NCBI RefSeq assembly: GCF_032854445.1
Contig: NC_088295.1
Location: forward strand, 48,967,385-49,031,384
Length of the DNA stretch: 64,000 bases
From: Liolophura sinensis
Lineage: Eukaryota > Mollusca > Polyplacophora > Chitonida > Chitonidae
Direction of reading: 5' to 3'
Shown here: positions 35,757 to 63,714 of the stretch, piece after piece
Position numbering within the stretch: position 1 is the stretch's first letter
How the letters are laid out: every line of letters begins with the position of its first letter
Position numbers and translations under genes: made by a program
The notes under the pieces: generated by a model
What the model was told of the DNA's origin: nothing
The model's input: the letters and a program-made list of their open reading frames with translations, nothing else
Databases searched by the model: none

Positions 35757-38700
35757 ATGCATCCTCAGCTCTCCATTTGGATACTTGTTCTTGGCATGGT
35801 GTTTTCTGATTTACTGGTTGTCACACCTGCCGTGGAGTACACACCAGGTAAGTCAAAATTCTCAAAATAGATAAGGGACATTAAACACATAATCTCTTGA
35901 GCACACTGTTTTGCTTTCCACATGCTGGATTTTAACAAAACGTCAACAATTGAAGGTAAGATAAACCTCGCTAGCTTACACCCGTAAATCGTTAGAGGAA
36001 AATGTTTAATAACAATAGTCCCACGTTTTTTCAAGCCTGATGTCCACATTAACATTTCTCATGTTATATGCATGTTTAAACACAATGTTCTGCCTCACAA
36101 GAAATCTATATAGCAACATGTGTTCTATCCATTCCACAGTATTTGTACCATGTTGCATCACTCGATACGTTGTACATGTCGTTTCCTATTGTTTCATTCT
36201 ACGTGTTATGCATACTTTGGCAAAGCACACTTCGCAAATCACATTTAGAGTAGCACATTTTGAAAACTAAATTGTTTCTGCCTTCGTTTCCTATTGTTTC
36301 ATTCTACGTGTTATGCATACTTTGGCAAAGCACACTTCACAAATCACATTTAGAATAGCACATTTTGAAAACCAAATTGTTTCTGCCTGCGTTTCCTATT
36401 GTTTCATTCTACGTGTTATACATACTTTTGCAAAGCACACTTCACAAATCACATTTAGGATAGCACATTTTGAAAACTAATTTGTTTCTGCCTTTGTTTC
36501 CTATCGCATTATTCTACGTGTTATGCATACTTTTGCATAGGACATTTTGCAAATCACATTAGGAAAAGCACATTTTAAAATGATTTGAATGATTTGAAGT
36601 GATTCCAGTACCCGATGATTCAACAGAAGCCTTATGTCTGGAGATTCTTAAGTTACATGGCTAGATGCGGTTGTTTTTGTTTTTTTTTTTTGGGGGGGGG
36701 CTTTATCAGGTCAGCCGCATGACCATTGTAGTAAAAAGGTGGAAAAAATTCTTATAATATATAATATAAATCATGTTGCCCTAAAGATAGCTAACCCTGC
36801 ATGTGGTTAATAAAATCCTTAGGCAGCATAGATTACCTCAAGCTTTCATAATATGGAAGCCGATAGAGGACATCTCGTTGCCTCGCTACCTATACCTTTC
36901 TAATACAAGGCGAGGCAGCGAAGTAGCGGAGCTAGGTAAAGAGGTAACGAGGCAGTGAAGTAGCAAGGTAGCAAGGTCGATTCACTACCTCGGTGACTCG
37001 CTAGTTCACAGCCTTGCTACCTTGCTATCTGCTTACTTCCCTGCCTCGCTGCCTCGCCCTGTGCAAATGTAGCGAAATTATGTTAATCTCGCTACCTCGC
37101 TGTCTCGCTGCTTCTATACCTCTCTTCGACGTAGCAAAATGTTCTCTATGAGCTTCCGTAATCGAGTGTGTTATAGATTTGATGTTCAAGGCTAGACATA
37201 ATGTCTACTATACTCTGCCTTTGTCTTTGTTCGTTTAAAATATATGTAATTAATAATGTCTGTGAATATTAATAGTCACCAATAGTCTGGATATAATTAA
37301 TTACTTGGATTTACTGAAACACTGTGACTGGTATACCCCTTGATGGAAAACAATTTGCGAGGGAATGAACCTGTACATTTACCATATGCACCACGCATTT
37401 ATATCTTTTTGATTGATGTTTATCTCCGTACTCAAGAATTATGAAATGGCGTTGTCGGTATGAAGGCTATACGTTGAGGCACGCGAAATGCCCGGACTAA
37501 ACCATCGTCATTCCATAGGTACTTGACAAACATACTGATTCAAAGCCGCAGCCGAATGAATGGAATCCGGGTTCGAACACGCGACCTCATTGATCAAGGA
37601 TCTGACAGCAGTAGCGGACCAGCGCTTTAACAGCCTATTCCTACAGGGCCCTATGTACATTTTATGACGTATCATGCTTACAATATGCCATGTGCAATAT
37701 ATACCAACAAATGCGTAGTTTATTGATTCTGCCATGAAAGAAATTCATGTTATGACTTCCCTGTAAATACGGATTCTTCCTAACTCTGTATTATGATAAA
37801 GTTGTCACGCATGTAATTTAAGAGTGAAAAAAATACCCAGAAAGTGTGAAGGTCTTGTATAAATTAAAACTTACCGCTTACAGATGGGAGGCACTATCAA
37901 ATGTAAAACCCTAGTCAAGACTTCCGATTATTTGATCTCTGACAAAGGATACTTTAGTTATGATGGTCTGTCGAAGTCGTTGAAGATGAGGCCTCCGTGG
38001 CCTAGTCGTTAGCCTATGACCCAGCAGTAAGAGACCCACGAATCTTGTTTCCAACTCATGCTTGTTTCCTTTTCGGTCGTACGTGTGAAAGTATGGGTTT
38101 CTCCCGGGTCTGATCGATTTCCCCCCCCCCACCATAATGCTGGTCGCCATGGGAATAAATAAAATATACTTGAGTATGGTGTAAAAATACAATGAGATAA
38201 ATAAATAAAATATCAAAGAAAAATGCATAAGTAATGTTTTTTTGTATTCACCTGTACATTTTCACAGAATCCTGTCCTGTTTTTCTATCTGTTAGATGGA
38301 CTGGAAATCCGGATGAACACAACCTGTCGTCAGATTGATATTGAATGTCCGTACAACCATAGTATAGAGATATTGTCGAAGCTGGATGGCGCCAAAACCT
38401 ACCACTGTCCGAATACTGAGCCAGAGTGCTGCTCTTTCAACGAGACAACGGACTGTTACCAGCCCACCACACCAGGGTTGTTAAGATTTCAGCGCCAGGT
38501 GTGTGAAAACCGAACTACTTGTACTATATACTTACCCGGTGGAATATCGGTAGGGTGTGCCATCAGCCAGTATGTGGTTGTCTCCTACGTGTGTCAATAC
38601 GGAGGTAAGGTTTCTTTTTTATTCTCAGATATTAATTTTTTGTCTCTGTAGTTGCTTCTTTGTCTGTCAGCAGTTTTAAGGAAAAAAAGTTACGCAAACG

Positions 38701-41700
38701 ACTTTGATGAAATTTTGTGCAAAGACCCGTTGTCAAAGAAATAGTTCGTTTAAAGTTCAGCCAACTTTTGGTATATATAATATTTGTTTAATAATGTTAT
38801 AAATAAGGACGTATCACATGGTTAGTATATAAATAAATAAATATATTTTTTCGCCAGACTTTGGTCTTTTCAGCTAGCAAACGTCTTCAGCCTGGATTTT
38901 GATCAGTTTTATGTTTTGATATATTCATAAATATTGTCACAATTCAGATTAAATGGATGTGTTTGGATGTAAACAGCAAATTTATATTCAAATAAATTTA
39001 TTAGACATGCATCAGATCCTTACTTAGAACAATATTATGCAGTGACAATGAATAACAAAAGGTGGTTTCAAATACCCACCAATCAAAAATGTTTTCAAAT
39101 ACCCTTTTCTCCTAAAAAAATCAAAAACACCTTATTTGCAAATAAGTTTTGACGCTCTTTAATCTGATTTTGTCCTCATTCTTCTTCTTTGAATTTTACT
39201 GGTAATTTGGATGTATGAATTTTTGAACGATCCTTCACCCGACAGAAAGGGCAGAAATGCTGATCACTGTCCCTTTGTAAGTAGTACGGAAATTTTTTGT
39301 GGCAGTGGTCTTACTCTAGGGTGACTTCGAAGTTTGTTTCATTAGATTCACCATAATTATATATATATATGGGTAAATCAAGTATTGAGACTAGGGGTGG
39401 TCGTGCTTGACGTTCAGAGAACCTGTTATATCCACAAACGAATACACACATTGTATCAAGACACTCCTAATAAACCCTGATTAAGGTACTCTTGACAATT
39501 CAAACCATGGCGCTGTTAACAATTTCTCAGCCAAGGAACTGTTAGCAAACCTCAAACCATGGCACAACTAACCGCAAGCCACGGCGATATTAACAAACCG
39601 CAAACTAAGGCTCTACTAACCGCAAGCCATGGCGCTGTTAACAAACCGCAAACCAAGGCACTGTTAATGAAATCAGTCAAGCCACTGGTAACACACCACA
39701 ATGAAAAGCACTGTTAACACACAACGACCAAGGCACTGTTAACAAATCCCAAACCAAGGCGTTATTAACCGACCACAAACCAAGACACTTTGAACAAACT
39801 CCAAATCAGAACACTCTTAACAAATCCAAACCAAAGCACTGTTAATAAATATGTATTCCTTAGCACTATTAATGAAACCCATGCCAAGGCGCTGTTAACA
39901 AACACCAAACCAAGGTGCTCCTAACAAACACCTAACCCAGACACTGTTTACAACCCCAAACAAAGGCACTATTAACAAGACACAAACCAAGTTGCTATTG
40001 ACAAACCCCAAATTAAGGCAAATTAACAAATACAAACCAAGGGACTGTTAACAAACCCCACACCAAACCATTTTTAACAAATCCAAAGGAAGGTACTGTT
40101 AACATACCCCTAACCAAGGCTCTGCTCACATACCCTAAACCAAGGCACTGTTAACAAACCCTAAACCAAACCATTTATAACGAATCCAAACGAAGGTACT
40201 GTTAACATACCCCTAACCAAGGCTCTGCTCACATACCCTAAACCAAGGCACTGTTAACATACCCCAAACAGAGGTACCGCTCACATAACCTACACCAAGG
40301 CACCATTAACAAACCTTGATTAAGGAGCTGTTAACAAATCTAAACCAGGAATCGAATAAAAACGAAAGCGTTGTTAATAACTAAATCATAACGCTGTTAA
40401 TAAACCCCAAAAGAAGCCACTGTTAGCAAAACTCCAAACCAAGACGCTGTTAACAAGGATCAAACCAAGAAACTGTTAACAATCACCAAACCAGGCAACT
40501 GTTGGTAAACCCCAGACAAAGGCTTTCGTAACAAATTAAAGTCATTGCGCTGTTAACAAACCCAGACCACAATGCTAAGCAAACGTAGGCCAAGAAATTG
40601 TTACAAATCCAGATTACCGGGCTGTCAAGAAAAAATCTTGGTTTGTTCACATAACCAGACTTAGTTGCTGTTAACCTACCCGGGTTTACATGTAGGTGGG
40701 GCTGCCAAACCCAAATCAAGTCGTTCTTAACAAACCCTGGTTAAAATGTTATTAACAAACTCAGATTTCTTTATTTATTGATTTTCTTAGTGTTTAACGC
40801 CCTCGCGTTTCATCTATATGTTGTTTCATTTTTTTATGGGTAGTGGAAACCGGAGTGTCGGAGAGTCAACCACCGGCCTTGGCCAGGTACCTGAGCTTCA
40901 TATGCTCACATTTAAGCGTTGGTAACAAACCCATACCGATCCGTTGTTAACAAATCCAGATCGAATGGCTGTTAACACACCCAGGTAGAGTCGTTGTTGA
41001 GAAATCCAAACCAAATCGTTAATAGCAAACCTAGATCAAGTCGCTGTCAACAAACCCAGACCAAGAGTTTGTCAACAAACCCAGATCAAGTCGTTTTTAA
41101 CAAATCCAGACCAAGTCGTTGTTAACAAATCCAGACCAGATCTTTGTTAACAAACGCAGACCAAGTCGTTGTTAACAAATCCAGATCAAGGCCCTGTTAA
41201 CAAATCCAAAGCGAGCAGTTGTTAACAACCCCAGAGCGCACAGTTATTAACAACCCAGAGCGAGCAGTTGTTCACAAACCTAGAACGAGCAGTTTGTTAA
41301 CAAACCCAGATCAAAGTCCTGTTAATAAACCCAGATCAAAGTCGTGTTAACAAACCCAGATCAAGGTCCTGTTAACAAACCCAGAGCAAGGAGTTGTTAT
41401 CAAATCCTGACGAACAGTTGTTAACAAACCCAGAGCGAGCATAAACCAGATTATGGTCCTGTTAAGATTCTCAGACAAAGTATTTGTTAATGAACACGTA
41501 GTAATTGTTTACAAACGCAGATGAAAGGGCTGTTAACAAACATAGGGTGACATATTTTCAAACCCAGATCATTGCGTTGTTAATAGAACCCAGCTCAGAA
41601 AGTATTCCTCATTACACCCAGATTTGACCTTTTGCTAATATAATGCGACAAAGTGGGCTATAAAGTGCCAGGTGAGGCGTGACCCATCCACTTTTATACA

Positions 41701-44700
41701 GCAAGTGTCAAAGCCGGTATTACATGGAGAAACGCGTTCGTCGGACATAATAAATACAGCCTATTTCTTTGCAGATGAAGTGGTCCAATACAAAATGTAC
41801 TCAAAGGATGTTCTTATAATGTTATGAGATTTTCCCAACCGTTCATTATATGCTGTCAGCATAACATTTGCTTGCAAACATAAGTTGAATATATATCTTG
41901 CGAACTGATATTCCAACTGAATGAGGGGTGGAGGTTGTGATCTCTTTACCTATACACAGTGTGTTCCCAGTGAACCGTATACAAATACATGTGGGTCATT
42001 CTAGGATTGCGGCCCAGTTTCTTCACAGCTTTTCCATGTTCAACATTTTGAATATTCAGTCACCAGACACTGATATTTACACTCAAAAAAATCAATCTGT
42101 TAATTTTAACAGAAAGTTTGTTGTCTGAGGGATGCTAGATTCTATTATGTTATTGAAACACATTATTCTGTTAAATATAACACATATTTTATACATTCAA
42201 TATAAAGATTCTATTAGACAAACAGAATATTATGTTGAATATCACATAGCATTATGTTGTAACAACAGAACACATTCTAGCACCACTCAGGCAACAGAAT
42301 TTATGTCAAAATTAACAGATTGATTTTTTGTGTGTCTCAAGCTCAAATCGCACCCAAACCGCACTACTACCAAACGTTCAAAGGCTTTCATCTGTCCATA
42401 CCTTTAACTCGTTGTTAGTTGTAGTTGTATAGCAAACCTTGTAAACTTACATCTTGGATTGACATTAAAGCTCGACATACATGGGAGCCTAAGAGCAAAC
42501 TCAACTCAACTCGACTGCAGCGTCGGGTCCTAAGCACCTGTGTATGCGAGACTCAACTGAAGTTCTACTCCAGTCGTTACATGGATTCCGGCCAACCTTA
42601 AAGTTATATGGTCACCAGCGAGTGGGACCGACAACATGTACATACCGCCAACTGAGCTGAATTGAGTGGTGTCTTGCAGGTTAAGTGAGTCAACTGAGAG
42701 GTGACTATCGTGCATAGCCTCAGAATTTTATACAAAACGAAATGACTTATGTTTTCGTTTCTTTGACGACGTTCATACAGATCAGGGCGCATATTTAACG
42801 TTTTTTTATAGACAAGTATAAAACTCAAATAATGCCACAAATGAAAAGCCTTGCTCTAGAAAGGTTAAAATTTGTACACTGTTTGGATTTTGGCTTTTTA
42901 ATGACTTGCAATGTATGACGTAAGTCTTAAGTTGCGTCATAAATTACTAGTGCTTAAGAAGCCACCTCAGGACAGGAAAGATCTCAAATTGTGGCTGTTG
43001 TATAGCTCTGTGGTTAGGAATCGGAGGGCAAATTTTTAACTTCTTAGATTGTAGCTGTGTTTGATTTTTGACTTAGCTTTAATTAAGAAGCTTGTGAAAT
43101 ATTGGCCCTGTTGTACGGAACTGTGTTCGCATTAACGTACCATTTCACGACAAGACACCAAGAACACAGAAATCTAAACGGCAGCTTTTAAACCTTGAAA
43201 ATGTAGATTGTCATGATAAAGGCTCACTCTTTATTTGTCCTCTTATAAAGCTGTTTATCATGATCTGTACTTTATATGCCCACAAATGTGTGTATTAGAC
43301 CATGCGTAACTCCATGTGTTGAAAGCAACAGTTGAAATAACAATAGTTATAATTTTAACAGTGGATACCACATGATACATCAATATAATGGCAGAATTGT
43401 GGTTTTCTAGTCTATAAAACATTTTAAGAAGTATTTTCCAACAGCACCAGGTTCCCCGTCCAACATAATCACCCTTAGCAAAGAAATATAGAAAGGAGCG
43501 TAAATGTATACATTATTGTTACAGTTAGTTTGATCTCGTGTGATTGAAATTTAACGTTGCTTAGCACGGTGCCTTTGTAATTTTACAACGGTGCCTTTTT
43601 GTCTCTTAACTAGATTTTCCAAATACCTACATCTTTTATGGTGCTGCCTCACTAGAACGCCATGCTTATGACACCAGACACAATGCCCAACCCTGACAAC
43701 GCACTCACTTAACCTGCTTCTTTATACTGAGCACCAGCCAAAGAAGTAACCCCTTCAACCGATGTTGAGAGGCCATGAATAATATTCCACTCTCAATCAC
43801 ATGTCCGAAGTTCATAGTTACTAAGAAATAGTCAAATGCAAAATTGATACATCATGGTAGGAAGCTCAAGTGCTAATATCACTGCTCTGTAAGGAAAACA
43901 CTCGGTTTGACATTTTGACTTGTTTTACCCTGGATCTAAGGAGACAAGTGTTCACACTCCATGCCGTATCGCCACGATATGACTGAAATATTGCCGATGT
44001 GGCGTTCAGCCATAATCACTCATTCATTCATTCATTCCATGCCGTGTATTTTACGTTTCTTATGTTAATATTCGTTTTATATCTGAATCCTTAATATAAG
44101 AATGTTAATATATGTTGCTAATTTTCTTTTAACTACAGGTCCTACCACTTTACCTAGCACAACACTTCCACCAACTCGACCTGCAGTCCAGAAAACAGAA
44201 GTAAACCGTAAGTATTTCTATCAGATTTCAACTGGGATAACTTTGTACAAAGTAAACAGTAGGACTTTCTGGAAAGACGTTATGGTAGGCGACATAAACG
44301 AGCCTAGTTTGTGTCAAAAGTTTTTACAAAACTAGTTCATTAAAAGGATATTAAATAACCTTAGGCAAAGTATGAATTACCGCTAGTCTGTCTGTGGAGA
44401 TAAACTGGATGTGTGTAAATATTATCATCACCAGTGTTTTTCATACATTTAGAAACCGAATTTAAAAACAAATCATCAAACGAAATACATTATTGTTTAA
44501 AAGAAAATGACACTGAGCTATAAGACCTCCGTACATATCGTTGAAAACTGATCTGTTAGATTTAACAGATTTGAGTGTGGCTAGAATGTATTTTGTCACT
44601 CCAGCAGAATTTTGTGTCAAATACAGCACACATATTGTGTTAATTCAACATAAAAACTGTATATAAGACTATATGGGACATTATGTTATAGTAAGGAAAT

Positions 44701-46792
44701 ACGTTCTAGCATCACTCAAACAACAGACTTCCAGTTCAATTTAGCAGATTATTTTTTTTTTAGTGTGGTATAGTTTTTTTGTGTAGTGTATACAAGTATG
44801 TTCTCTATTTTCTGTAGTTCTTGCAGCACTGATTGCCCCCATCGTCGTCGTGTTCGCTTTGGTCGTTATTATTTTGCTAGTGATTTACTACAGGTGAGTC
44901 TTAACATGGAAAAACATGACGTCTAACCATGATTTAAACTGCTTTACTCGAATATCATCTCAAGCATACATCCCATGGCCACAAACGGCATCGTTCCTTT
45001 CGACGTTTTTGTTGACCACATAGTAAAACGTTATGATATTTATGTCTGTTGTTCGGGTGGCCTTCGTGGCCGAGATGGTTAGCACGCCAACGCGGCGCAA
45101 TGACCCAGGAGCCTCAAGTTCAGCTCATGGTGGCTTCCTCTCCGGCCGTATGTGGGTAGATCTGCCACAAACCTGCGGATCGTCGTGGGTTGTTCCAGGG
45201 CTCTGCCCGGTTTACTCCCACCATAATGCTGGCCGCCGTCGTATAAATGAAATATTCTTGAGTACGGCATGAAATACCAATCAAATAGATAAACAAAAAA
45301 TTCTCTCCATTGTGGAACGTATTCAAAGTCAAGTACCATCAATCAACAATTGTCACTAAACACCCCCCCCCCCCACACCCCCACCCCCCACTATTGTCCC
45401 CAGAAAAAGCTAGAAAAGCCTTCTACAAATGGCAATTAATGTAGGGTTTTATACACGCTATATATTACCTTTAAACAAAATCCTGACATAGGTGTAAAAA
45501 TGTTCTTTTGCTAAGTACTGCTAGCAACTTTACTATTTTTCTCAGAGATTTATTCAGTTATGTTTAATATTTGCACCTAGTTATTTGATTTTCATGTGTT
45601 ATTTGATTTTCATATGTTATCCTCCAGATATTATCGAGGGCATAAGGACCTCCTAGAAGCCGACAAAACCCCTTCCTCTGTCACCCATCTTAGGATGAAG
45701 GTGGACAAATCACAAGCCCGAGTGAAGACGGCGCCGAGGTTCAAGCTGGACACGGGATTGTCAGGGCACGGATTAGGGCTACACGGCTCGAAATGGTCAA
45801 AGAGCAATATCGACTATCGAAAGTTTGGAAACTCCGAGTTACACTCACAGTATTCCTACGCGCCCACCGGAAACATATGGAAACAGGCAAATTGGATGAC
45901 ATCACTGTCAAGCCCGAATCATATTTATAAAAAGAGGAGAGACGACGACAAAGTGAGTAGGGCGCGATTCCTGATGGCAGCGAGGGATAGAGATTTAGAT
46001 AGCTTGGGCTTCGAGGACGACCTGGGCTTTCCTGATATCAGCATATTTTCTATTGCTCAAGCGAGACAAAGCCCAGACAGTGGCCTAGATAACCTCGGAT
46101 ACATATTGCCTGTAATTCAAGACCCGCCAGCAGCGGAATCGCCGGCGCTACATCGTCATTCTCCGGCGCCTCACCGCAGTTCTCCGGCACCAGTTCGGAA
46201 TTCTCCGGCACCGGCTCTCCGCATGGCGGCATATCACCGCAATTCTCCAGCATCGGCTCGTCATTTGGCGGCAAATCACCGCAGCTCTCCGGCACCAGTT
46301 CGAAATTCTCCGGCACCGGCTCTCCGCATGGCGGCATATCACCGCAATTCTCCAGCATCGGCTCGTCATTTGGCGGCAAATCATCGCACATCTCCAGTGC
46401 CAGTTCGACATTCTCCGACACAACCTCTGTATTCACCGGCGCTGAGCTCCAACCCTGCGACACCTCGTCCATCTCCCGTGCCGCATCACCATCATTCTCC
46501 ACAGGGTGCGCTTGACGTGGAGAGATTATTTCAACAACAACGTGATGCAGTCTTTCAAACGTCGCTCAGCCCCGACGATGCCTTAAGGCGACCTCAGTTC
46601 CGCCAGCCAACAGATCAAAGGCGACGCTACGACTCTGGCATCATTCCTGATCATGACCCAGTTTCTAATTGGACGATACCCACAAGCCCCAATAGTGCCT
46701 TCCAACCACATCAAAGCAACGATCATTCCGACGAAACAAACGATGCTTTTAGCAATTTGAGCTCAACTATTGGTACAGAAATGCTATACTGA
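35757..46792 (+). CDS. Cysteine-rich (SUEL-like) single-pass receptor 1, Ser/Pro-rich tail
   Basis: Five exons: 35757-35847, 38296-38604, 44139-44207, 44818-44893, 45628-46792, giving 569 residues with phases 1-1-1-2. Residues 1-25 form a signal peptide (MHPQLSIWILVLGMVFSDLL). Residues 31-133 are a cysteine-rich domain with NTTCRQIDIECPYN at the start, VCENRTTCTIYL near the end and VVVSYVCQYG closing it. This follows the SUEL (Gal/rhamnose lectin) plan loosely; it is clearer in the two paralogues downstream. The stalk (134-156) is Thr/Pro-rich (PTTLPSTTLPPTRP). The span is about 157-181 (LIAPIVVVFALVVIILLVIY). The 388-residue tail has VKTAPRFKLD, shared with receptor 3, then Ser-Pro-rich repeats. 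It lacks ITIM-like tyrosines. The introns are large and hold arrays and transposons. Ligand binding is inferred from the domain only. Confidence 0.85.
36181..36590. repeat. Four tandem copies of a 105-bp unit
   Basis: Units start at 36181, 36286, 36391 and 36496 with 'gtttcctattgtttcattct'. Copies 1-3 are very similar; the fourth is more diverged and trails off near 36580. It lies in intron 1 of receptor 1. Confidence 0.95.
36855..37157. mobile_element. Foldback element with a simple-sequence interior
   Basis: The ends GGAAGCCGATAGAGGACAT (36855-36873) and, inverted, GGAAGCTCATAGAGAACAT (37139-37157) match at 16 of 19 positions. The interior is made of degenerate 'gaggcagcgaagtagc'-type units on one side and their complement ('gctgcctcgctacc') on the other, so nearly the whole element can fold on itself. 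Confidence 0.6.
37408..37652 (-). mobile_element. Diverged tRNA-derived SINE, reverse orientation
   Basis: Read on the minus strand the head contains GTAGGAATAGGCTG and the B box GTGTTCGAACCCGG, a good Pol III promoter match. The other end has the inverted 'ccgtactcaagaat' tail remnant. Confidence 0.55.
37985..38215 (+). mobile_element. SINE family A, diverged
   Basis: The head 'gaggcctccgtggcctagtc', then the body with CCCGGGTCTG and a C-run, the tail 'tatacttgagtatggtgtaa' and (AAAT)n. It ends about 80 bp before the lectin-like exon of receptor 1. Confidence 0.8.
39430..41620. repeat. 2.2-kb degenerate tandem array
   Basis: Roughly 25-27-bp units on the theme 'ccaaggcactgttaacaaac' (later 'ccagatcaagtcgttgttaa') run through intron 2 of receptor 1. 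Units drift from one side to the other: AAACCAAGGCACTG in the left half and CCAGAGCGAGCAGTTG on the right. Imperfect HpaI-like GTTAAC sites recur. A SINE-like insertion splits it at 40768-40915. Confidence 0.9.
40768..40915 (-). mobile_element. SINE-like fragment inserted in the tandem array
   Basis: The 'tttatttattgattttctta' start, 'gtgtttaacgccc', then 'gtggaaaccggagtgtcgga' and 'caaccaccggccttggccag' match a reverse SINE end and body of a variant related to family A. It interrupts the repeats on both sides. Confidence 0.6.
42079..42335. mobile_element. Foldback (MITE-like) element, copy 2, best preserved
   Basis: Terminal inverted repeats: left ACTCAAAAAAATCAATCTGT, right (inverted) ACACAAAAAATCAATCTGTT, continuing into TTTGTTGTCTGAGGGATGCTAGA against TCTGTTGCCTGAGTGGTGCTAGA. 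The internal AT-rich part has no coding capacity. Confidence 0.8.
43960..44038 (+). mobile_element. SINE 3' end with CATTCATTCATT tail
   Basis: 'ccacgatatgactgaaatat', TGCCGATGTGGCGTTCAGCC and ATAATCACTCATTCATTC match a motif that also occurs near 1126-1190 and, diverged, near 62296-62352. Such ends are common in molluscan V-SINE-like elements. Confidence 0.6.
44545..44767. mobile_element. Foldback (MITE-like) element, copy 3
   Basis: The left arm has TGATCTGTTAGATTTAACAG; the right arm has 'tctagcatcactcaaacaac' and TTTAGCAGATTATTTTTTTT. It is related to the copy at 42079-42335 but more diverged. It ends about 50 bp before the membrane-span exon of receptor 1. Confidence 0.65.
45056..45298 (+). 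mobile_element. SINE family A in last intron of receptor 1
   Basis: The head 'ggtggccttcgtggccgaga' is followed by a deletion of the CTCACCAATGCGGT segment; the body and the tail 'aaatattcttgagtacggca' are present. A C-rich run follows at 45361-45390. Confidence 0.85.
46178..46450 (+). repeat. In-frame 105-bp coding repeats in the receptor 1 tail
   Basis: Two nearly identical 105-bp units start at 46178 and 46283, with a partial third at 46388. Each encodes 35 residues containing SSPAPVRNSPAPALRM and then AAYHRNSPASARHLAANHR. The serine-proline pairs are potential proline-directed kinase or SH3-type sites. The opposite strand is also open across this region (46050-46502), a by-product of the repeat composition. 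Confidence 0.9.
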
Positions 46793-49700: not shown

Positions 49701-50832
49701 ACAGATCCGGTTGTGTTTAGCATAAATCACGACTTACATCAGCCTATGTTGAACGCTACAACGACCGGCGCTGAGGGCTTCCATTGACTGGTTGTGGATA
49801 TACGTGTTTAATGTGTGCTATAAATCATGTCAGGTCGCACTTCCTGTGTGATAGTTTTACACACTTTACATTCGTGATATATACAGTGGATAATACGTAT
49901 TCAACCATTCTGAGGAAATTAATGATCAGTTTCGGAAAGAGAGACCAAGTCTGTTTTCCTTTCTTAATGTAATTAATTTTTTTTTATCTTCCAGCATTTG
50001 ATTGTTTTTTACATCGTGTTCATATTACCATTAAATTAATGCCCTTTCGCTTTATGGAAATAGAGCTGTCGATGATGTAGTCAGTAAAGTTACATATATA
50101 AAATAGCATCCCAGCATGTAAATTGCATTATCTATAAAAACGTGTGTATAAACTTATTAAAGTCTGCATTAAAATAGGAAACTTTGACCCGCATTGCACA
50201 CAAATATGCAAAGTAAGTCATATTAAGATAATTTGATACACAAGTTAATACAGTCCTCCATAACTGAGGCGGAGAAATACAGACATAGGTCTGGTTTAAA
50301 TGTAAGAGTCATGCATGAAGCGCCTTGACAGAGTGAGCTGTCCTGGATTCTAGAGTAACTGTGCCAACTATTATCCATCTAGGCGACAGATTTGTATTAC
50401 ATATATGCGAAGCAGAAGACTAGAGTTTTACAACAGTGGCTGGGTCACTTTTGCTTATATTCTCCGGAATGGTTCAGATGACGTAAAGACTGACCTGTAT
50501 ATAGCAGTCGGTGTGCTCTTGGGACGTTTCACATCGGAGGTTATTCGGTAGAAGCCAATTAAGATGTCTTACACAGGGGTATGTGCACTGATACAGAACA
50601 TTTGCAATATTGAAAAATGCACAAAGTGTATATACTTGCCACGAGTTTTGACTACTGCCAATGGAAGGGAGATATGATCCATTGCCTATAGAAAGCCGCT
50701 GGGGCCATAAATGAACTAATTCAAACCACTTCCTGCTATTTTCACACAAGAGCTAAAACTAATCATGCTTTTTGCTGGGTTGTTACGTTGACAAAGTGAC
50801 TGTTCCACAAACCTCTCCGACTCTGTCAAGCA
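46793..50832. other. Spacer between receptors 1 and 2
   Basis: Holds the 3' flank of receptor 1, a foldback element at 47441-47857 and candidate AATAAA signals at about 48025 and 48365. No other exon was found. Short frames such as plus 48832-49092 lack support. Confidence 0.4.
47441..47857. mobile_element. Foldback element with about 45-bp arms
   Basis: The left arm CAAGAAGTATGCAACTTCCC at about 47444-47463 matches the inverted right arm near 47834-47853, and matching goes on inward through GCTA and GCAC.TTACAC. No frame of note lies between. Confidence 0.6.
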
Positions 50833-53800
50833 ATGGACTACCAGGACATGTGCAAGGTATTCCTGCTCCTGGTAGCTGGACTTTTATCAACACTAGTGGC
50901 TTCACAAGGTAAACAGACAATTAAGTAGTGTTATTGAGTACCTGAGTTAACTGGAAGCTGGATCTCTCAAATGCTCTTGAGTAAAAGAAAAAGCTGACAC
51001 AACTCTGTTCTCATTGGTTCGTATACTGTTTTAATATAAACGCGGCTTTCATTTGGCTGGAGCTTCAAATCAGATTTGCCATGTACCTTGCTAAAATCAA
51101 ATAGCCTTGGATTATTAAACCCCTGTCAAACAAATAAATAGTTTTTTTTTTACTACTACTATGTTTGGATTGACAATCTGGATGTAAGCTTTCATCGGTA
51201 TTATAGAATGCTTACTTAGTGATGACAAGTTTGGATAAAACGACAAACGTAATAATACGGTGAAGCAGCTTCATCTATTCCATAGCCGACCGGTCTTTGC
51301 TAGTTTTGCAAATTCTATAAGATGGGTACATATATGCGAATACACCAATGTAAGGGTAACCTATTATTATGATTTATCTTCCAGATTTGATTTTTGCTCC
51401 ACTGATGTTGCCTTTATTTTCACAGCCGACACAAGATGGATATATATTTGCGTAAGCACCGCAGTGACGGTGGCCTGTCCGGAGAGACACCTTTTCAACA
51501 TAACCGATGCATCCGTAGCTTATAAAGCAGAATTCTGTCCCAGTAACCTCACTGATCCGGCGGACTCTGTTGCTGATTGTTATGAATCTTACGCTGCAAA
51601 AGAGAATTTTGTATCTGACACACGTTCCCGGTGTAACGGTAGTCGTTTTTGTGACCTTCGCTTTGACCAAACTGTTCTCCAAATGTGTGCTACTTCCAGT
51701 ACGGCCAACTTTTTAGCCGTCATTTACACATGTTACAATGGTGAGTATATATACAATATACTTTCTGACTTCTACTCTACTCAACAAAGTTAATGTTATG
51801 ACCTCCAATAATGTGCTGATATTAGCTGATCGTTTTGAATTTTATGCTGGAAAAAGGATTTTATATCTAACAAACCTTCCTTGTGTAACGGTAGACGTTC
51901 TTGTAATCTTATCTTTGGAGGATCTGTCATGCTGATATGTACCATTGTCCCTATGGCCAACTCTTTGGCCGTCCGTTACACGTGTTATAGCGGGGTGAGT
52001 TATGTCAACTTGTCTCAGTATCATCGTGTCAAGATTTGGGAACTGCCTCTTTTCGTTGTGAAATGGAAGCAACCGGCCACTTTACTGGATGAATAAATAC
52101 ATTGATAAATGCTAGTATAATACATGTGCATATAGTACTGACTGTTCCAAGTACGGGATAAAGAAGACATTATAGTGTTTTTGATTTACAAATGAGCAAC
52201 TGACCTATCAAGAAATATGAAGTGCATTATCACATCTGTATTTTGAGCAAACTTTTTTTTCTGGCTTTTCACTCCTTTCTTGGTGCGATTGTACTGTTAC
52301 AACGGTATTAAATATATCTTCCTGTTTTCTCGGGGAATTACAGTATTCTTCCCTTTGAGCAGCTCTGAGTTGCCTGAATGGCGATGGCTATAATCCCGGA
52401 TTCATATTGCTTGCTGACTCATTCCTAAAGCGTCCCCCCTGGCTACCGATAGGTTCAAGTCTATAATTAATCCGTTCATCGAATCTAACTCTCACTTATT
52501 CAGCTGTGGTTTAAATTAAATTCGTGGCCAAAATATGCTTCTTTGTTCATTGACCAACCGAAAAGTTTTTTTAAAAAAAAACCCCAAAAAACAATAACAA
52601 TACCGCCTGTGTAGGCTAACCGAAATATGTCCATGGTATGCTTCTGGTATTTCTAAACATAAAATCGGTTAAATTATGTAAAACACCGCTGTTACAAGTG
52701 CCATCCCAGTCTGGTGAATTTCCAGAAAATATTGTTTGTGGCCTTTTCAGTACATATTTTCAATCGTTTGCCAATTGTTAGGTATTATCCTTTGTGTTTT
52801 CAATATATTTTCCTTGCTGGCCCCCCAATGCATTTTGACTATCGGTACGTAATGTCTGATGCCTTTTCAGTATATGGTGTTTGGGGGCTTTCTGAATATT
52901 AGAAAGGCAGCAACGTTTCCTACTAGATGACAACACAATATTCTTTTGGTCGTCAATTTTCCCTCAGATCCGAACCCCCCTACAACTACCCAGTCAACAA
53001 CGACTCCAAACAGTACAGTCCCGGCATTCTCAGAGACTACAAGAGCCGCTTCTGCTACAGAGCCTTTACCATCCATAAGTTAGTGTCTTCATTCTTTTTG
53101 TTACCGAATTTTCTATGATTCGTGCAGGACTACGTTGGTATTAAAGGGACATTCCGCTGACGTCGAAAAAAATGTGCTGTTATTTTAGACGTAATTTATA
53201 TAAAGCTCAGGCTTCCAGGTGGTTTCGGGGGGCCTCCGTGGCTCAGTCGGTTAGCGCGCTAGCACAGCGTAATGACCCAGGAGCCTCTCACCAATGCGGT
53301 CGCTGTGAGTTCAAGTCCAGCTCATGCTGGCCTCCTCTCCGGCAGTAAGTGGGAAGGTCTGACAGCAACCTACGGATGGTCGTGGGTTTCCCCCGGGCTC
53401 TGCCCGGTTTCCACCCACCATAATGCTGGCCGCCGTCGTATAAGTGAAATATTCTTGAGTACGGCGTAAAACACCAATCCAAAAATCCAGGTGGTTTCGA
53501 GGTTTCCCATCGACCACCAATTCATTCAAGTCGCTGTATTTGGAACACCTGATGTTACCCCCCCTTTGTTGTCTAGACGACGAGAGATGTTCAGCGAACT
53601 TGAAATGTCAGACACATTATTGTGTTGTAATTATGCGGTCTACCAAGCAATTTCTGTTCTACCGTGCAGATCATTACGAATTAGAAAATACTTTCAGTCT
53701 TTGGCATTGTTTACTATTTTGACCCTCGATGGCGCTCAGGTGTTTAAGGCTACAAAGTTCATGATTCCGTTTCCTTCCTCACTAAACCTATTCACTACAA

Positions 53801-55457
53801 CATAGGTTAAGTACTCTATACTGTTATATGAATCTATTAACATCTGTCTGTCTGTTTCAGTTCCGATCGCTGTTGTAACTGTAGCAGTACTGATGGGACT
53901 CATCCTGCTCGTATCTATCACTATCTACCGAAAACGGTAAGTCTTGCCCTAGCATCTGTATCCGATGAAATAGTTTGCGACAGTTTATTGCTTACATTGT
54001 TACTAAGTGACATGATACGGAAATACATGGTGTCAGTAACCCTCATATTGGTTGACGCATCAGCCGATAAATAATTTCCGTATCCTATCATCAAGTAACC
54101 ATGTGACGAATTTATGCTGCGAAGGATCAAGAGTCAAAAATCGATGTATAGGTGAATTGCTTCAGTCGTGTGACAATTGTTTTCAAACCCGAACAAAGGG
54201 AGATAACCTAGTCAGCAGACACAAATGCCGTTGTCTACAATGTATTATTATTATCGTTGCCCACGTGACCGATGCTGTCTAATGGAAAGTGGCGTATTTT
54301 GTCTGATGCGGGATAATCCTCTATATTTGTGTTGAGATTTGGAAAGGCACGGATATAAAAGGCAGTAAACCTGAAAAATTGGGCGGTACAATTGAAGATA
54401 TCATTTATACATTAGAAATTTAAAATACTGTTGTTCATCTTTGTTACCTGTAGAGCTTGTTACATCTATTTATTCATTTGATTAATGCTCAACACAGTAT
54501 TCAAGAATATTTCACTTTCACGGCGGTGGCCAGCATTATGGTTGGAGGAAGCGGGGCATAGTTCAGGGGAAACCCAGAACCATCCATAAGTTAATGACAG
54601 ACCTTCCCACATACGGCTGGAGAGGAAACCAGTATGACTCACAGCAACCGCATTGGCGAGAGGATTTTGGGTTATTGCACCGCGCTGACGCGGTAACAAC
54701 CTCGGCCACAGAAGCCTCGGAGCTTCTTATAATGTTGTAGACAAGTTTGAATGATTAAAGATTTATTATTTATTTGACTGGTGTTTCACGCCATACTTAA
54801 GAACTTTGGAAAGCTTTCCAACATGTGACGAACCGCTACATATATGTTGACCATAATGGTGGAAGACAAGCGGTCTTTAATGGACGTTAGATTGCACAAT
54901 GGGCCTGGCAAGCGTTGTCGATCGCTTATCGTCACTAAGACCACACAAACAGTGAGTGGGTTCGTATCATGTCCATTCCAGGATTTGCACCGGCACCTCT
55001 TGTATCTCAAACTTGCAGGCAAGCTTAATTTATTTAAGTTCATACAGCTTAATATCTTGGAAATATTATGGTTTGAAATATAAGTGCATTCCACTGGCCC
55101 TTTCATTGTATATAGCCTGATGACGGGTACTGTTTGGTGTTTTATAGACGCAACCGAGGGGACAAGAGTGTTGAACGTCGGGAAGCCCAGGAAGAGAGTG
55201 TCACGTATTACAACGTGCAAATAGATAACTCGCCCAACCCACCAGGCCGGAGTGACTCTGAATTGAACATGAACAGTCCAGCCATATCTACAGAAAGTGA
55301 GGAGCCCCAACCTACGTCAGATTACGAGGGCATCTCGTCACAGAATGAAATGCCTTTCAGAGAACACAACTATGAGAAGATTAGCGTCAGCAACGAGACG
55401 TCGGCATACACCAGTATGGCCTTCACCCCTGATTACGTCAACGCTGAAGGGTATTGA
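50833..55457 (+). CDS. SUEL-lectin single-pass receptor 2 with ITIM-like tail
   Basis: Five exons: 50833-50908, 51426-51740, 52968-53078, 53861-53936, 55148-55457, phases 1-1-1-2, 295 residues. Signal peptide 1-24 (FLLLVAGLLSTLVAS). Residues 26-130 form one Gal/rhamnose-binding SUEL-type domain: VTVACPERHLFNITDAS, a middle DCYES, then RCNGSRFCDL and LAVIYTCYNG, the usual closing pattern. Stalk 131-167 is Thr/Pro/Ser-rich. Span about 168-190. The tail has tyrosines in VTYYNV (Y213), SDYEGI (Y252), SAYTSM (Y280) and DYVNAEGY (Y289). The first two fit the ITIM consensus [SIVL]xYxx[VIL], Y280 is YxxM and Y289 is YxN. This suggests an extracellular glycan or protein ligand and SH2-protein recruitment at the membrane; both are inferences. 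The ATG is in a good context (AAGCAATGG), shared with receptor 3. Confidence 0.88.
51835..51994 (+). pseudogene. Broken duplicate of the 3' half of the SUEL exon (receptor 2)
   Basis: Starting at GCTGATCGTTTTGAATTTTA, this stretch aligns with the second half of exon 51426-51740, keeps CNGRRSCNL and LAVRYTCYSG, and ends at the same GTGAGT donor. One base is missing before TATCTAAC, which breaks the frame, and no acceptor is evident. It lies about 95 bp after the real exon. Confidence 0.75.
53229..53482 (+). mobile_element. SINE family A, full-length reference copy
   Basis: Head from 53229 with A box TGGCTCAGTCGG (53239-53250) and B-box-like GAGTTCAAGTCC (53307-53318); body 'gtgggaaggtctgacagcaa', 'ccgggctctgcccggtttcc', 'accataatgctggccgccgt'; tail TATTCTTGAGTACGGCGTAA and ACACCAATCC. 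It sits in intron 3 of receptor 2. Confidence 0.9.
54463..54716 (-). mobile_element. SINE family A, diverged, reverse orientation
   Basis: Inverted tail 'cagtattcaagaatatttca', body, B-box region and the head ending GGCCACAGAAGCCTC. It lies in intron 4 of receptor 2. Confidence 0.8.
54765..54965 (-). mobile_element. Family C SINE-related element, reverse
   Basis: 'gactggtgtttcacgccata' then 'ggtggaagacaagcggtctt', 'aatggacgttagattgcaca' and 'aagcgttgtcgatcgcttat', matching the element at 31596-31905. Confidence 0.65.
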
Positions 55458-55693
55458 CTGGACAAAGTGGACGCAGAGCGGGGACTTGTGGGCATCGCAT
55501 CCAGTTTGCTTCCTGGAACCAGACAATCCAGACCACTGAACACGTGACGAACTATCGATGAAGGCCTGTCCTCTAATGTGGACATAAATTGACGTTGTAA
55601 AAATTGTATATGTTTCCAAGCTTTCAAACAGTGTGTTTGCACCTGTGTGTCCTCGTTGTTTTGTGCTTAACCAGTTTATGAGTGAAACGGTAT

Positions 55694-55699
55694 AATAAA
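55694..55699 (+). terminator. Polyadenylation signal AATAAA, receptor 2
   Basis: First AATAAA after the stop at 55457, giving a 3' UTR of about 260 bases. A second AATAAA follows near 55884. Confidence 0.6.
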
Positions 55700-58600: not shown

Positions 58601-59462
58601 TTTGATTAATGACTTTATAACTGAAAACACACACAACTGGGTGCCACAAAAGCGTGTCTACGTTTGGTCAGGTAGGTTGTCGCAAACCTGAATGTGGGTA
58701 TAATGGTATACAAGCCCTGATCTTCTCTCAGCTGTACTGTGACTAAGACGGCCAAGTCTTACGTAGGACAACTGATCCAGCCTGTGTCATTTGTACTAGT
58801 CAATATTGTATGTATTACATGTTTTAATCCGTTTTATTACTATTTTAAAGTCACAACTCTCATGTGAAGGGTGGTAAGAATATGCAGAAGAGAGCGGTAG
58901 ACGGCTAGAGTGTTTAAGTTTGAAGCAGATTGAGCTTAAAGTTCCAGGTACCAGATGACGTAAAACCTCGCCCACATGACGTGTTGTAGTCTGTTTGTAA
59001 TCGTACAGGAACTCGGGAGACACGGTTGCTGTTGACGCCGTTTAAAACGTGGTTAAACCGGCAGTTGACATTTGGCTTAATGTGACAGCAAAGAGGCTGA
59101 GAGAAGGGCTAACCTTACAACGAAGACCGTTCCAAGGAAGTAAAGACGTTTGGTGCAAAAGCGAAGAAATGTACAGTTGACAGCAGTAAATAACCATCTC
59201 ACCTGTGAAAGACATCTTGGCACAAGAAAGGTGGCACAAGGAAGGACCATTGATACAGGATTTTGAACTCTTACACAGAAAAAAGGTCGTGTTAACATCT
59301 ATTCTTCAAGGGATACTAGTCTCGTCTACTTCCTGGTAAAAGGTTTCACTTTTGTGTTTGTGCTGACATGTAACGCTCAGCTCTGTTCGTGGATGTTAGC
59401 CATAATCATCTGACTGTTGTAGGCACAAACACATACAAACAAACTTCTGTTTTCCCCAAGCA
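55700..59462. other. Spacer between receptors 2 and 3
   Basis: AT-rich and without supportable exons; the plus frame at 58370-58609 is hydrophobic but has no splice or domain support. The sequence just before 59463 (CCCCAAGCAATGG) resembles that before the receptor 2 start, so the duplicated segment extends a little upstream of the ATG. Confidence 0.4.
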
Positions 59463-62400
59463 ATGGACCACCTGGGTATATACAAGCTGTCGCTGCTGCT
59501 GGTAGTGGGACTGTCGACGAAACTGGTAGCTTCTCAGAGTAAGATTTCATCATTTCTTTTTATGCCAAAAACTATCTGACCTTAAAGAGGCGGTCAATAT
59601 GCTGTCATATTCTTGAAACATAACTGTCCTCATGTAAAACTTCCATCTGTCTTACACTGTCTTACAATACTGTATTTCACCTAAATTTTGGTATGTAAAA
59701 ATGTACTTTTGGTTGCATATAAACACCGTAACTGATTCCTTCGATGCAAAGTTTTGCCAATAAGAAATTAACAATTCGTTGAGTGATCTTATAAGGCAAG
59801 ACTTCAATCACGAATGAAGCAAAAGTGTCACGTGAGAAAAGCTAAACTTAAGGTGAAATAAAGTATCATTTAGCTTTGAATTGTGACTTCAACTGCTTCA
59901 TACAACAAAGTTCTAACAGGTTTTCCTTTCCGCCCATTGCAATAACGAGCGTAGAACCGTCGTGTAAATGAAACCTCTTGAGTAAAGCCCTGTTTCTATG
60001 GACATACAATTGCTTAGCGCATTCGTCACTGTTCTTTCGTCACTGTTCTGCGTTGACGACTGTACATCCCTGTATAATCTAATACCTTCATCAAACCACC
60101 CCAGCAAAATCCTTTCCCAATGTTTTAAAATGGGTCATATTTCATTGGCTCTGCACTACAGCGTGTGTTAAAGAAACACCGCAGCGTGCCTTATGTTATG
60201 AATTATCGTGCGAGTAATCGCTAAGCAATTGCCAATCCGTGGAAACAGCACATTGGTGTTAACTTTAAATCCAGTACACAAGTGTACGTCTTTCGCTTCC
60301 ACAAAATCTGAAGTGCCTTGTATTCTATTTGGTTATAACAAAACTCTATTTATGTTTACAGACGACACAAGATGGACATATATATGCCTAAGCACTGCAG
60401 TGACAGTGGCCTGTCCGGAGAGACACCTTTTCAACATAACCGATGCATCCGTAGCTTATAAAGCAGAATTCTGTCCCAGTAACCTCACTGATCCGGTGGA
60501 TTCTGTTGCTGATTGTTATGAATCTTACTCTGCAAAAGAGAATTTTGTATCTAACACACGTTTCCGGTGTAACGGTAGTCGTTTTTGTGACCTTCGCTTT
60601 GACCAAACTATTCTCCAAATGTGTGCTACTTCCAGTACGGCCAATTTTTTAGCCGTCAGTTACACATGTTACAATGGTGAGTATATATACAATATACTTT
60701 CTGACTTCTACTCTACTCAACAAAGTTAATGCCATGGCCTCCAATAATGTGTTGATAATAGCTGATTCTTTCCCTGCAAAAGGGATTTTTATATCTGGCA
60801 CACGCTTCCGGTGTAACGGTAGTCGTTTTTGTGACCTTGACTTTGACTCAAGTGTTCTCCAAACAATGTCCTACTTCCACTATGGCCAAATTTTTAGGCG
60901 TCAGTTACACATGTTACAATGGTGAGTATATAGACAAAATATTTTCTGACTTCCATTGTATGCAACAAAATTAATATCATGGTTTCCAGTAATGTGCTTT
61001 TCAACATCTTACAAAACTGTGCACATTTATCTGTTCTAAATGTGGAAGAAAAACACATTTTAATTGAAAATAGAAAGTTCCAAATCTAAAATAATAGTAA
61101 CAATGACAGTCTCACGTGTCATGCATAACAATATCAGAATAATAAAATTAGCTAAATCAGATAACACTTCGTTATTACAAGTACAGTTTTGTCTGCTGTA
61201 TTTCCAGAAAATATTGTTTGCCGCCGTTTCAGTATATGTTTTCTTTTTCCTTTTTATTAAGTATTATCTCTTTTCCTTTCAAGACATTTTTGCGTGTTGC
61301 TCCTCTACTTCATTTTGATTCGAACATTCTTACTATCGTTTATCAATACCTGATGCCTTTTCAGCATATGGTGTTTGGTGGCTTTATGAATATTAGGATG
61401 ACAATGACGCCTGTTAGCAGATGATAAAACAATGTTATTTTGATCTTTAATTTTCCCTCAGATCCGAATCCTCCTACAACTACCCAGTTAACAAAGACAC
61501 CAAACAGTACAGTCCCGGCATCCCCACAGCCTACAACAGCCGCTTCTGCTACAGAACCCTTCCCATACATCAGTGAGTTTCTCTCTTTATATGTATAGTT
61601 TTGAATGTCTTGCGATACTTCCATATAAATTCGTTAAATAAAGAGAACAAATGATGATTACTGTCTGTCGACTTGTGTGAAAGTGACCGCTTCATTTGAT
61701 GGATCCTCTGGAAAGGCCACCAATGAGAAGCCCGGTTGATTCGCCTGCAATTTCTTCACAGGTGGTTTTCTCCAGGATTCACCAGTCTTTCTTCATTCAG
61801 TAACTTGAAAGCCATCATACAAGTGAAATGTTTGTCCGTTCGACGTATAACACCAATCAAATTCTGTAATCCATGTTTCAGTATACCAAATAAGTCTGAG
61901 TGGGCTTTGTACGAGAGTGTTGTCTAAAACTTCGGTTTGTCCTTTTCGACAAATTCCAATCTTGATTCCTCCACCCACCAATCTTAACATCGGGTCTAAG
62001 ACGTTAATATCTTCATGTTAATGGCTCCCGTCAGGGAAAAAATCTTGTTCATGGCCTTAAATAACAGTCAGAAAATTTAATAAATAAATAATGGCTCGTC
62101 AACTTGCTGAGGGCAAGAGCTTCTTGACACTTTGTCAAGTTTGCACATAATACCTCTGTCACATTTTAAATCACATTTTGGACAATCCCCACCTATGTTC
62201 GTCCATCCATCACTGTTACACGGTCAGAGGGACATTGTTCCTGGGTTGTTTATTGCCCAAGTATCATTAAAAGTACAAGTGTACCTAGGCCTTATGACCA
62301 TAATATGGCTGAAGTATGGCCAATGTGGTGTTCAACTCAAATGATCCCTTCATTCCTTGCTGTTTCAGTTCCGATCGCTGTGGCGGCTGGAGCTACTCTG

Positions 62401-63714
62401 GGACTTATTCTAATCATCTGTATTATAATCTGCTGTATATGGTAAGCAGCGCAGTAGAAGTTGTCATGCTAATCTCATTCCAGGGGAACATCAGTTCTGA
62501 TATCAGTTTTCATTTGCATACATTTCATCCGTGGAAAGAAATTACGGCATGTTAAACCTTATATTATTACTTTGTTGTGTTTTTTGCAGTATGTTGCTGT
62601 TTGTTTTTGTATGTTTGTCTTTTTCTTTTTTTTTTTTTTGAATTTTTCCTGAGCTTATTCTGAGCACAGATATTATCGGCAACAATGAATCAAAAACTGT
62701 GCCAATATTGTCAACAGGAAGAGTCCTTTTAGGGGTGAAGTTCAAGTCGTGCTTTTTACTGTTGAAAACATTAAGTGTGTTTCGATGTTTTGTCAAACCA
62801 GGATTGCCACATTCTAAAAACTAATGTCGTAAATTTAAAATAAAGCTTTTTCTGAGTGACCTCACAATAGATTGTTATTTGAACATAGTATTATGTTACA
62901 GACAACGCAGTATCCTTTGCATCGACAAAAGAACAAGACCTGTAAAACATAATAGTTTGTAGCGATATGCCATCTCTCAGAAAACATAGCCTGTCATTTT
63001 AGCAGATTATTTTCTAGTGTGCATTCGACTGCTTTGCCGTGTTCTGTTGCTTCAACATACCTATTGTTTCACAGGCGTAACCGAGGCAAAACGAGTATAG
63101 ATCGTCCAGATGTCAGGAAAGAGAGCGTCACAGAAGTGAACATCGTCAAGAGAGGTGACGACAACAGGGTGAAAACAGCGCCCAGATTCAAAGAGGATTC
63201 CAACTGGAACCGTCCTGATCTCACCCCCAGCACTTTTGACGACAATGGACAAGTAGAAAATCCATCCTACCCTCAAGGCCTTTACGCGCTTCCTCATAAG
63301 AGCGCTAAGGCGGCAGTCGTTACCATAGAGACGGAGGAGCCCCAACCGCCTTCTCATTACGAGACAGTCTCACCCGAGAACGAGACGTCTCCGGGAAAGC
63401 CTCTAATCAGACAGAACTATGAAAAAGCTAAGCTGAGCAACGAGGGTTCAACCTACACCAACGTGGCTTTCACCCCCGATGACGTCAGTGATGACGAGGG
63501 TTCTCACGATCCCGATAAAAACTCTCCTCCTGGCGGAAATCGCGTCAGATTTGCTCCCGACGACGAATACACCGGCAGAGGGAGTCCGGACGGTGGTCAT
63601 TCTGAGCAGGTCACACTGCGCGAGGGTCTCTCCGAGGACAGGGACAAGGTGATCAGTGGAATGTACGCTAAGGTCAATAAGCAAGGGGTACAACTAAAAG
63701 AGGACCCTATGTAA
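59463..63714 (+). CDS. SUEL-lectin single-pass receptor 3 with long ITIM-like tail
   Basis: Five exons: 59463-59538, 60362-60676, 61462-61572, 62369-62441, 63075-63714, phases 1-1-1-2, 404 residues. Signal peptide 1-24 (LSLLLVVGLSTKLVAS). The SUEL domain (26-130) differs from that of receptor 2 at about nine residues. Thr/Pro stalk 131-167; span about 168-191 (GLILIICIIICCIW). The tail keeps blocks of receptor 2 (EEPQPPSHYETV, NYEKAKLSNE, YTNVAFTPDDV) but adds VKTAPRFKEDSNW, found also in receptor 1, and a 70-residue C-terminal extension. Y287 (SHYETV) and Y319 (STYTNV, also YxN) fit the ITIM consensus; Y389 (MYAKV) is YxxV. RVRF at 348-351 fits the PP1-docking RVxF pattern. Probable role: surface lectin receptor signalling through SH2 proteins (inferred). 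No AATAAA was seen before the window end. Confidence 0.88.
59930..59998 (+). mobile_element. SINE 3' end remnant
   Basis: 'ccattgcaataacgagcgta', 'tcgtgtaaatgaaa' and 'cctcttgagtaaagcc' recall the family A tail in diverged form. It lies in intron 1 of receptor 3. Confidence 0.4.
60761..60921 (+). pseudogene. Broken duplicate of the 3' half of the SUEL exon (receptor 3)
   Basis: Aligns with the second half of exon 60362-60676 from GCTGATT onward, with CNGSRFCDLDFD preserved and an intact ATGGTGAGT donor. A small internal deletion and a one-base insertion near CTCCAAACAATG shift the frame. The placement matches that of the copy in receptor 2, so the partial duplication came before the gene duplication. 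Confidence 0.8.
61775..61870 (+). mobile_element. SINE family A 3' remnant
   Basis: 'gccatcatacaagtgaaatg' followed by 'cgacgtataacaccaatcaa' is a degraded copy of the family A tail, in intron 3 of receptor 3. Confidence 0.5.
62835..63022. mobile_element. Possible foldback (MITE-like) remnant, copy 4
   Basis: The right end CATTTTAGCAGATTATTTTC and TAGTGTGC resembles the right end of the copy at 44545-44767. An internal 'catagtattatgttaca' also fits. The left end is weak. It lies just upstream of the tail exon of receptor 3. Confidence 0.35.

Follow-up and report, generated by a model that had tools for sequence, protein, structure and literature searches.

A tandem row of putative SUEL-fold receptor genes in Liolophura sinensis with a shared ectodomain exon and two lineages of tyrosine-bearing tails

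Do three adjacent genes of the mollusc Liolophura sinensis encode lectin receptors with inhibitory tails, and how do their outer and inner parts evolve? The genes lie in a stretch of 64,000 nucleotides (assembly GCF_032854445.1, contig NC_088295.1, positions 48,967,385 to 49,031,384), called the window here, whose coordinates are used throughout. An earlier note on this DNA had described three five-exon genes with exon-end phases 1-1-1-2, each reading from signal peptide through a cysteine-rich domain, stalk and membrane span to a one-exon tail. The models bear this out: all three are on the plus strand, their introns are GT-AG in 12 of 12 cases, and the phases are 1-1-1-2 in 3 of 3. We propose, with a probability of about 0.55, that these are tandem single-pass type I receptors of SUEL fold whose sugar site has probably been lost, with phosphotyrosine tails of two or more lineages and an ectodomain kept alike by gene conversion, a pattern of paired-receptor evolution. 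The basis for this proposal is the observed gene structure, SUEL homology, clustering, discordance between exon 2 and tail, and conserved tail tyrosines.

Divergence of the ectodomain exon and the tails

We compared the window genes with related loci downstream (lettered D to K; Table 1) and found two tail types, A in genes 2, G and the partial E, and B in genes 3 and H. Synonymous divergence (dS) of the tails was 1.07-1.30 between A and B (6 of 6 pairs) and 0.02-0.17 within a type (4 of 4). Exon 2, which encodes the ectodomain, had a dS of only 0.069-0.144 in all ten pairs among genes 2, 3, F, G and H and was not grouped by tail type: the values for gene 2 were 0.077 against gene 3, 0.069 against gene H and 0.100 against gene G, each based on 4.5-6.5 synonymous changes. 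Among the remaining exons, all of them short, exon 4 tracked the old split (0.97-1.01 across types in 4 of 4 pairs, 0.00-0.05 within), exon 3 was intermediate (0.15-0.33 across, 0.07 within), and exon 1 did not sort cleanly (0.82-1.07 across, with 0.88 also between genes 2 and G).

Genes 2 and 3 share a tract made up of exon 2 and ~70 bp of intron, at 95-98% identity. Its edge falls at the exon 2 border, and in 60-column windows beside it identity was 0.67-0.71 just downstream, 0.36-0.53 upstream and up to 0.88 near exon 3. Because synonymous divergence is low and a piece of intron is included, gene conversion is indicated rather than protein constraint. We conclude from these alignments that gene conversion homogenises an ectodomain exon shared between genes with different tails, which the earlier note had not seen. 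Intron 2 of gene 2, like that of gene 3, also holds a partial, decaying copy of the SUEL exon's 3' half, and loci F and G have comparable ones after exon 2. A surplus of exon 2 divergence since the duplication of genes 3 and H was considered and rejected: exon 2 differs at 13 of 315 sites and the rest of the gene at 127 of 3885 (P 0.41), and P was 0.02 only against the tail.

The tails were scanned with the pattern [SIVL]xYxx[VIL] for sites resembling an immunoreceptor tyrosine-based inhibitory motif (ITIM), with the chance level taken from 20,000 shuffles per tail. Gene 2 had two matches against 0.15 expected (Y213 and Y252; P 0.009) and gene 3 two against 0.20 (Y287 and Y319; P 0.015), while the ten tyrosines of the gene 1 tail gave none against 0.37 expected. 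YxN sites were found at Y213, Y289 and Y319, and a YxxM site at Y280. All these tyrosines stand where the earlier note had placed them. Two matches were likewise counted in E, G and H. All five A and B tails contain a common block with S-x-Y-E-x-[IV], NYEK and YT, in which one site, Y252/Y287, is ITIM-like in both types and homologous across a dS above 1. The ratio of nonsynonymous to synonymous divergence (dN/dS) between A and B tails was 0.30-0.37 in 6 of 6 pairs; by this measure, the A and B tails are under purifying selection. Thus, the ITIM-like tails described earlier hold good for two tail types but are not general, since genes 1 and J have no such site. Genes 1 and 3 have a TAPRFK stretch in common, and there is a weak match between their tails (E 0.02, window frames). 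In the gene 1 tail, in-frame tandem repeats of 42 bp and 105 bp (46142-46421) produce NSPAP/HR-rich sequence.

These data could also describe a neutral tandem cluster, in which conversion is due to proximity and the ITIM-like matches arise by chance in tyrosine-rich tails. In keeping with this, shuffling P values were 0.009-0.042 across the five A and B tails, with tails of one type not independent, and genes 1 and J lack the motif. Exon 2 also has a loose dN/dS (eight of the ten pairs lie at 0.36-0.93, and two that include gene F at 1.79 and 1.52), and between genes 3 and H it is no more different than the rest of the gene. However, the tract falls on the domain exon, whereas exons 4 and 5 are old; the tails are constrained, and types A and B have retained one ITIM-like site in common. 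We therefore regard a purely neutral origin as rather unlikely.

Ectodomain fold and the probable loss of sugar binding

The three ectodomains were compared with the Pfam profile SUEL_Lectin (PF02140; gathering score 31.4 bits). As whole proteins, gene 2 (E 0.0049) and gene 3 (E 0.042) matched under the gathering score, and gene 1 had no Pfam SUEL match. For the PF02140 assignment suggested earlier, genes 2 and 3 thus give matches below the cut-off, and gene 1 gives none. As single domains, 2 of 3 matched at all; exon 2 of gene 2 alone covered profile positions 2-80 of 80 (E 0.00036, 21.3 bits, again under the gathering score). The gene 1 domain alone matched the ADGRL2 lectin domain (E 0.0058), and the sole match of the gene 2 domain was an antibody chain (E 0.7). 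A profile built from the three window domains retrieved eight PDB sequences (E up to 10), and 8 of 8 were latrophilins, with E values from 7.1e-5 to 0.77. Of the eight latrophilin cysteine columns, seven were kept in 10 of 10 aligned cluster domains, and the eighth was displaced by a few residues. Judged by profile and cysteine pattern, the ectodomains are SUEL-fold domains, homologous over their whole length and with the eight-cysteine framework, one cysteine being shifted.

According to the available part of PMC4133157, the lectin-like domains of EVA-1 bind the protein MADD-4, a precedent for a protein ligand. The genes could be EVA-1-like co-receptors for adhesion or guidance; their SUEL domain would then recognise a protein cue, and the tail tyrosines would act in endocytosis or in recruiting Grb2/PI3K rather than in inhibition. 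YxN, YxxM and Yxx-hydrophobic sites do occur in the tails, and gene J has YxN together with no ITIM-like site. On the other hand, the five modelled genes have a single SUEL domain and not two, a Pfam scan of the three window proteins gave no domain at its cut-off, and the tandem turnover is unlike that of a conserved guidance gene. This alternative seems to us improbable, though still to be taken seriously. Membership in EVA-1 itself was rejected on domain number, as each of the five modelled genes has one SUEL domain exon.

Mouse latrophilin-1 holds rhamnose through Glu42, Tyr63, Gly117 and Lys120, and its mutants E42A, E42R, K120R and K120A had undetectable binding, as given in the accessible text of PMC2430599. 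We aligned ten cluster domains to ADGRL2, a count that excluded the D fragments, the extra F copies and the intronic half-copies. The results showed that the Glu42 equivalent is kept in 2 of 10 (gene F and the second domain of gene I) and that of Tyr63 in 1 of 10 (the second domain of gene I). The Gly117 equivalent is kept in 1 of 10 (the first domain of gene I) and that of Lys120 in 0 of 10, although the alignment around these two residues is uncertain for divergent cluster members. Because contacts important in mouse latrophilin-1 are mostly lost, the label "lectin" is doubtful, and the residue pattern suggests that the SUEL-fold domains of the cluster have probably lost sugar binding. Immune lectin receptors that truly bind sugar and use ITIMs to inhibit cells, in line with the earlier note, are therefore quite unlikely. 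Such receptors would fit the SUEL fold with ITIM-like tails, the Glu and Tyr equivalents in the second domain of gene I, and the oyster transmembrane lectins with tyrosine tails known from the available part of PMC13027682; they do not fit a lysine contact that is gone in 10 of 10 domains though kept (K-Y-L, read by eye) in 4 of 5 SUEL matches at Pfam level that other parts of the genome contain. At contig positions 47461915-47462136, ~1.5 Mb upstream of the cluster, there is a SUEL domain that is above the Pfam cut-off yet lacks the sugar lysine.

Gene models and the row beyond the window

In the window models, signal peptides were assigned by eye and membrane spans through a hydropathy scan. 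The weakest donor of each gene is the third, at 1.7, -0.4 and 0.8 in genes 1 to 3 on a rough consensus score, and no G-protein-coupled receptor (GPCR) part was found in the gene models. We added 100 kb on each side of the window, giving 264 kb out of a genome of 609 Mb in 632 contigs. The row continues for 87 kb downstream and comprises 11 loci over ~116 kb, all on the plus strand; it may extend past the 164 kb limit. With the domain profile (E up to 1), no copies were found in the 100 kb upstream of the window or in its first 35 kb. Five genes (1, 2, 3, G and H) were fully modelled, with a common five-exon layout and one SUEL domain exon each, and 7 of the 8 distinct phase 1-to-2 membrane exons in the 264 kb lie within the row. 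A genome-wide search with the gene 3 domain gave at least 14 matches, a lower bound from 15 scored candidates; 12 were in the cluster, including all 11 at E < 1e-5. The K domain gave three: K itself, gene 1 (E 0.021) and a weak one. The expanded family of the earlier note is thus larger than the window and made of tandem single-pass SUEL-fold proteins, though its sugar-binding character is in doubt. A false haplotype duplication in the assembly (genes 2-3 versus G-H, ~48 kb apart) is the least probable alternative, since, although parts repeat at a ~48-49 kb offset and the tails of genes 3 and H differ at 10 of 640 sites, gene 2 versus G is more diverged than 3 versus H, and the A versus B comparisons within the window are independent of duplication.

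Table 1. Features of the row in window coordinates.
Feature	Position	Strand	Description
Gene 1	35757-46792	+	569 aa
Gene 1 exon 1	35757..35847	+	signal-peptide-like
Gene 1 exon 2	38296..38604	+	divergent SUEL-fold domain
Gene 1 exon 3	44139..44207	+	Thr/Pro stalk
Gene 1 exon 4	44818..44893	+	membrane span, phase 1 to 2
Gene 1 exon 5	45628..46792	+	long Ser/Pro-rich tail with tandem repeats, without ITIM-like site
Gene 2	50833-55457	+	295 aa
Gene 2 exon 1	50833..50908	+	signal-peptide-like
Near-identical tract, gene 2 versus gene 3	51426..51810	+	exon 2 and adjoining intron
Gene 2 exon 2	51426..51740	+	SUEL-fold domain
Partial copy of SUEL exon	51851..51991	+	3' half, in gene 2 intron 2
Gene 2 exon 3	52968..53078	+	Thr-rich stalk, weak donor
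Gene 2 exon 4	53861..53936	+	membrane span
Gene 2 exon 5	55148..55457	+	tail type A: Y213, Y252 ITIM-like; Y268; Y280 YxxM; Y289 YxN
Gene 3	59463-63714	+	404 aa
Gene 3 exon 1	59463..59538	+	signal-peptide-like
Gene 3 exon 2	60362..60676	+	SUEL-fold domain, 92% protein identity to gene 2
Partial copy of SUEL exon	60764..60998	+	3' half, decayed, in gene 3 intron 2
Gene 3 exon 3	61462..61572	+	stalk, weak donor
Gene 3 exon 4	62369..62441	+	membrane span
Gene 3 exon 5	63075..63714	+	tail type B: Y287, Y319 ITIM-like (Y319 also YxN); Y307
Locus D	69.5-71.6 kb	+	partial
Locus E	82.1-83.6 kb	+	membrane and tail exons only; membrane-exon donor not conserved
Locus F	89.9-92.3 kb	+	exons 1 and 2 plus decayed copies
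Locus G	99155-103682	+	fully modelled; begins at internal ATG, counterpart of other genes' start missing
Locus H	107696-111642	+	fully modelled
Locus I	117.2-120.7 kb	+	candidate exon 1, two SUEL exons; no membrane span found
Locus J	131.5-134.5 kb	+	no exon 1 found
Locus K	146.3-151.4 kb	+	candidate exon 1; uncertain tail

Several other features were observed. Between F and G, at ~94.1-98.4 kb on the minus strand, open frames resemble pieces of a retroelement gag zinc knuckle and integrase, as judged by eye. On the minus strand of the window (15551-16434) there is a receptor-like membrane exon (16434-16344, phase 1 to 2) with a one-exon tail (15971-15551) carrying YSNL and YENF; Pfam scans of three minus-strand frames over ~16.4-31.4 kb found no ectodomain for it, and an exon scan found no first exons. 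Large minisatellite arrays lie at 8348-9727, 20787-21760 and 39501-41439, the last within gene 1 intron 2 and built of ~25-bp units around TTAACAAACCCAGA. An element named by eye as resembling a short interspersed nuclear element is repeated in introns of genes 1 and 2 (38094-38186, 45052-45285 and 53224-53482; 77-79% identity).

Proposed explanation and comparison with known systems

In the explanation that we prefer, the ectodomain would bind a protein or another non-rhamnose ligand, and the A and B tail lineages would stay separate while conversion keeps the ectodomain exon alike. Receptors seeing the same ligand could then engage different SH2 adaptors or phosphatases. Display at the cell surface, a common ligand and phosphorylation by a Src-type kinase would be part of this scheme, with a SHP-type phosphatase possibly recruited at the conserved S-x-Y-E-x-[IV] and Grb2 at YxN.

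Several points weigh against this explanation. Neighbouring genes also undergo neutral gene conversion, and the loose dN/dS of exon 2 means that a constant ligand is not proven. The gene models were read from the genome sequence alone. Every single-sequence SUEL score stayed under the Pfam gathering cut-off, and 2 of the 8 PDB profile matches had an E value below 0.01. AlphaFold models built from 3 sequences had low confidence (predicted local distance difference test scores, pLDDT, of 44 and 38), so the fold assignment rests on the profile and the cysteines. Y252/Y287 is the sole site that is ITIM-like in both tail types; the Y213 position is Glu in type B, and in type A the counterpart of Y319 is the YxxM site. 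Both tail types carry ITIM-like sites, and no immunoreceptor tyrosine-based activation motif (ITAM) was seen by eye in the inspected tails. As none of the tails was recognised as an activating counterpart, a classical opposition of activating and inhibitory receptors would be putative. We hold only tentatively, and with clearly less confidence than the explanation above, that the row could be a system of paired receptors in an invertebrate, built on a SUEL scaffold without sugar binding, in which one recognition exon is combined with at least two tails and specificity and output evolve separately.

In the literature on SUEL or rhamnose-binding lectins with ITIMs, the only ITIM mention concerned fish Siglecs, and a wider search named no SUEL receptor family with ITIM-like tails and no closer system; subscription papers were mostly uncovered by both, and absence is weak evidence. 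In their available texts, an Aplysia immunome has 3 SUEL lectins (PMC9334734), and rotifers have SUEL domains in some large membrane-associated proteins (PMC8878817). The L. sinensis genes resemble EVA-1/EVA1C in being single-pass with a SUEL-type ectodomain that is able to bind proteins, as far as the accessible parts of PMC2430599 and PMC4133157 describe it. EVA-1, however, combines two lectin-like domains with a short tail, whereas the five modelled genes have one domain, long tyrosine tails and a tandem arrangement; in gene I, two SUEL exons are present but a membrane span was not found. With latrophilins (ADGRL) they share lectin-domain homology, as in all eight PDB profile matches, and they differ in having no GPCR part in the gene models and in the loss of most sugar contacts.

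Among molluscs, the nearest systems found in the accessible literature are the oyster transmembrane C-type lectins CgCLec-TM1 and CgCLec-HTM, with hemITAM-type tails (PMC13027682), and CgSiglec-1, with an inhibitory effect (PMC5877582). These are likewise recognition proteins of a mollusc, but they have C-type lectin or immunoglobulin (Ig) domains rather than SUEL, and conversion is not mentioned in the available portions of the two papers.

In evolutionary pattern there is a parallel with the Siglec-11/Siglec-16 and CEACAM paired receptors, which have a conversion-homogenised ectodomain exon and differing tails (available texts of PMC5701461, PMC5112662 and PMC2832619); in Siglec-11 and -16, conversion keeps the binding exon alike (PMC5701461). 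Those receptors are vertebrate, of Ig fold and with one activating partner, whereas here the fold is SUEL and both tail types are ITIM-like. Ectodomain homogenisation together with divergent ITIM-type tails was met, in the literature as far as accessible, in Ig-fold vertebrate receptors. If our explanation is true, finding this pattern in an invertebrate and on an unrelated fold would mean that paired-receptor evolution arises repeatedly, and the findings supply concrete phosphopeptides and a shared ectodomain with which this can be tested.

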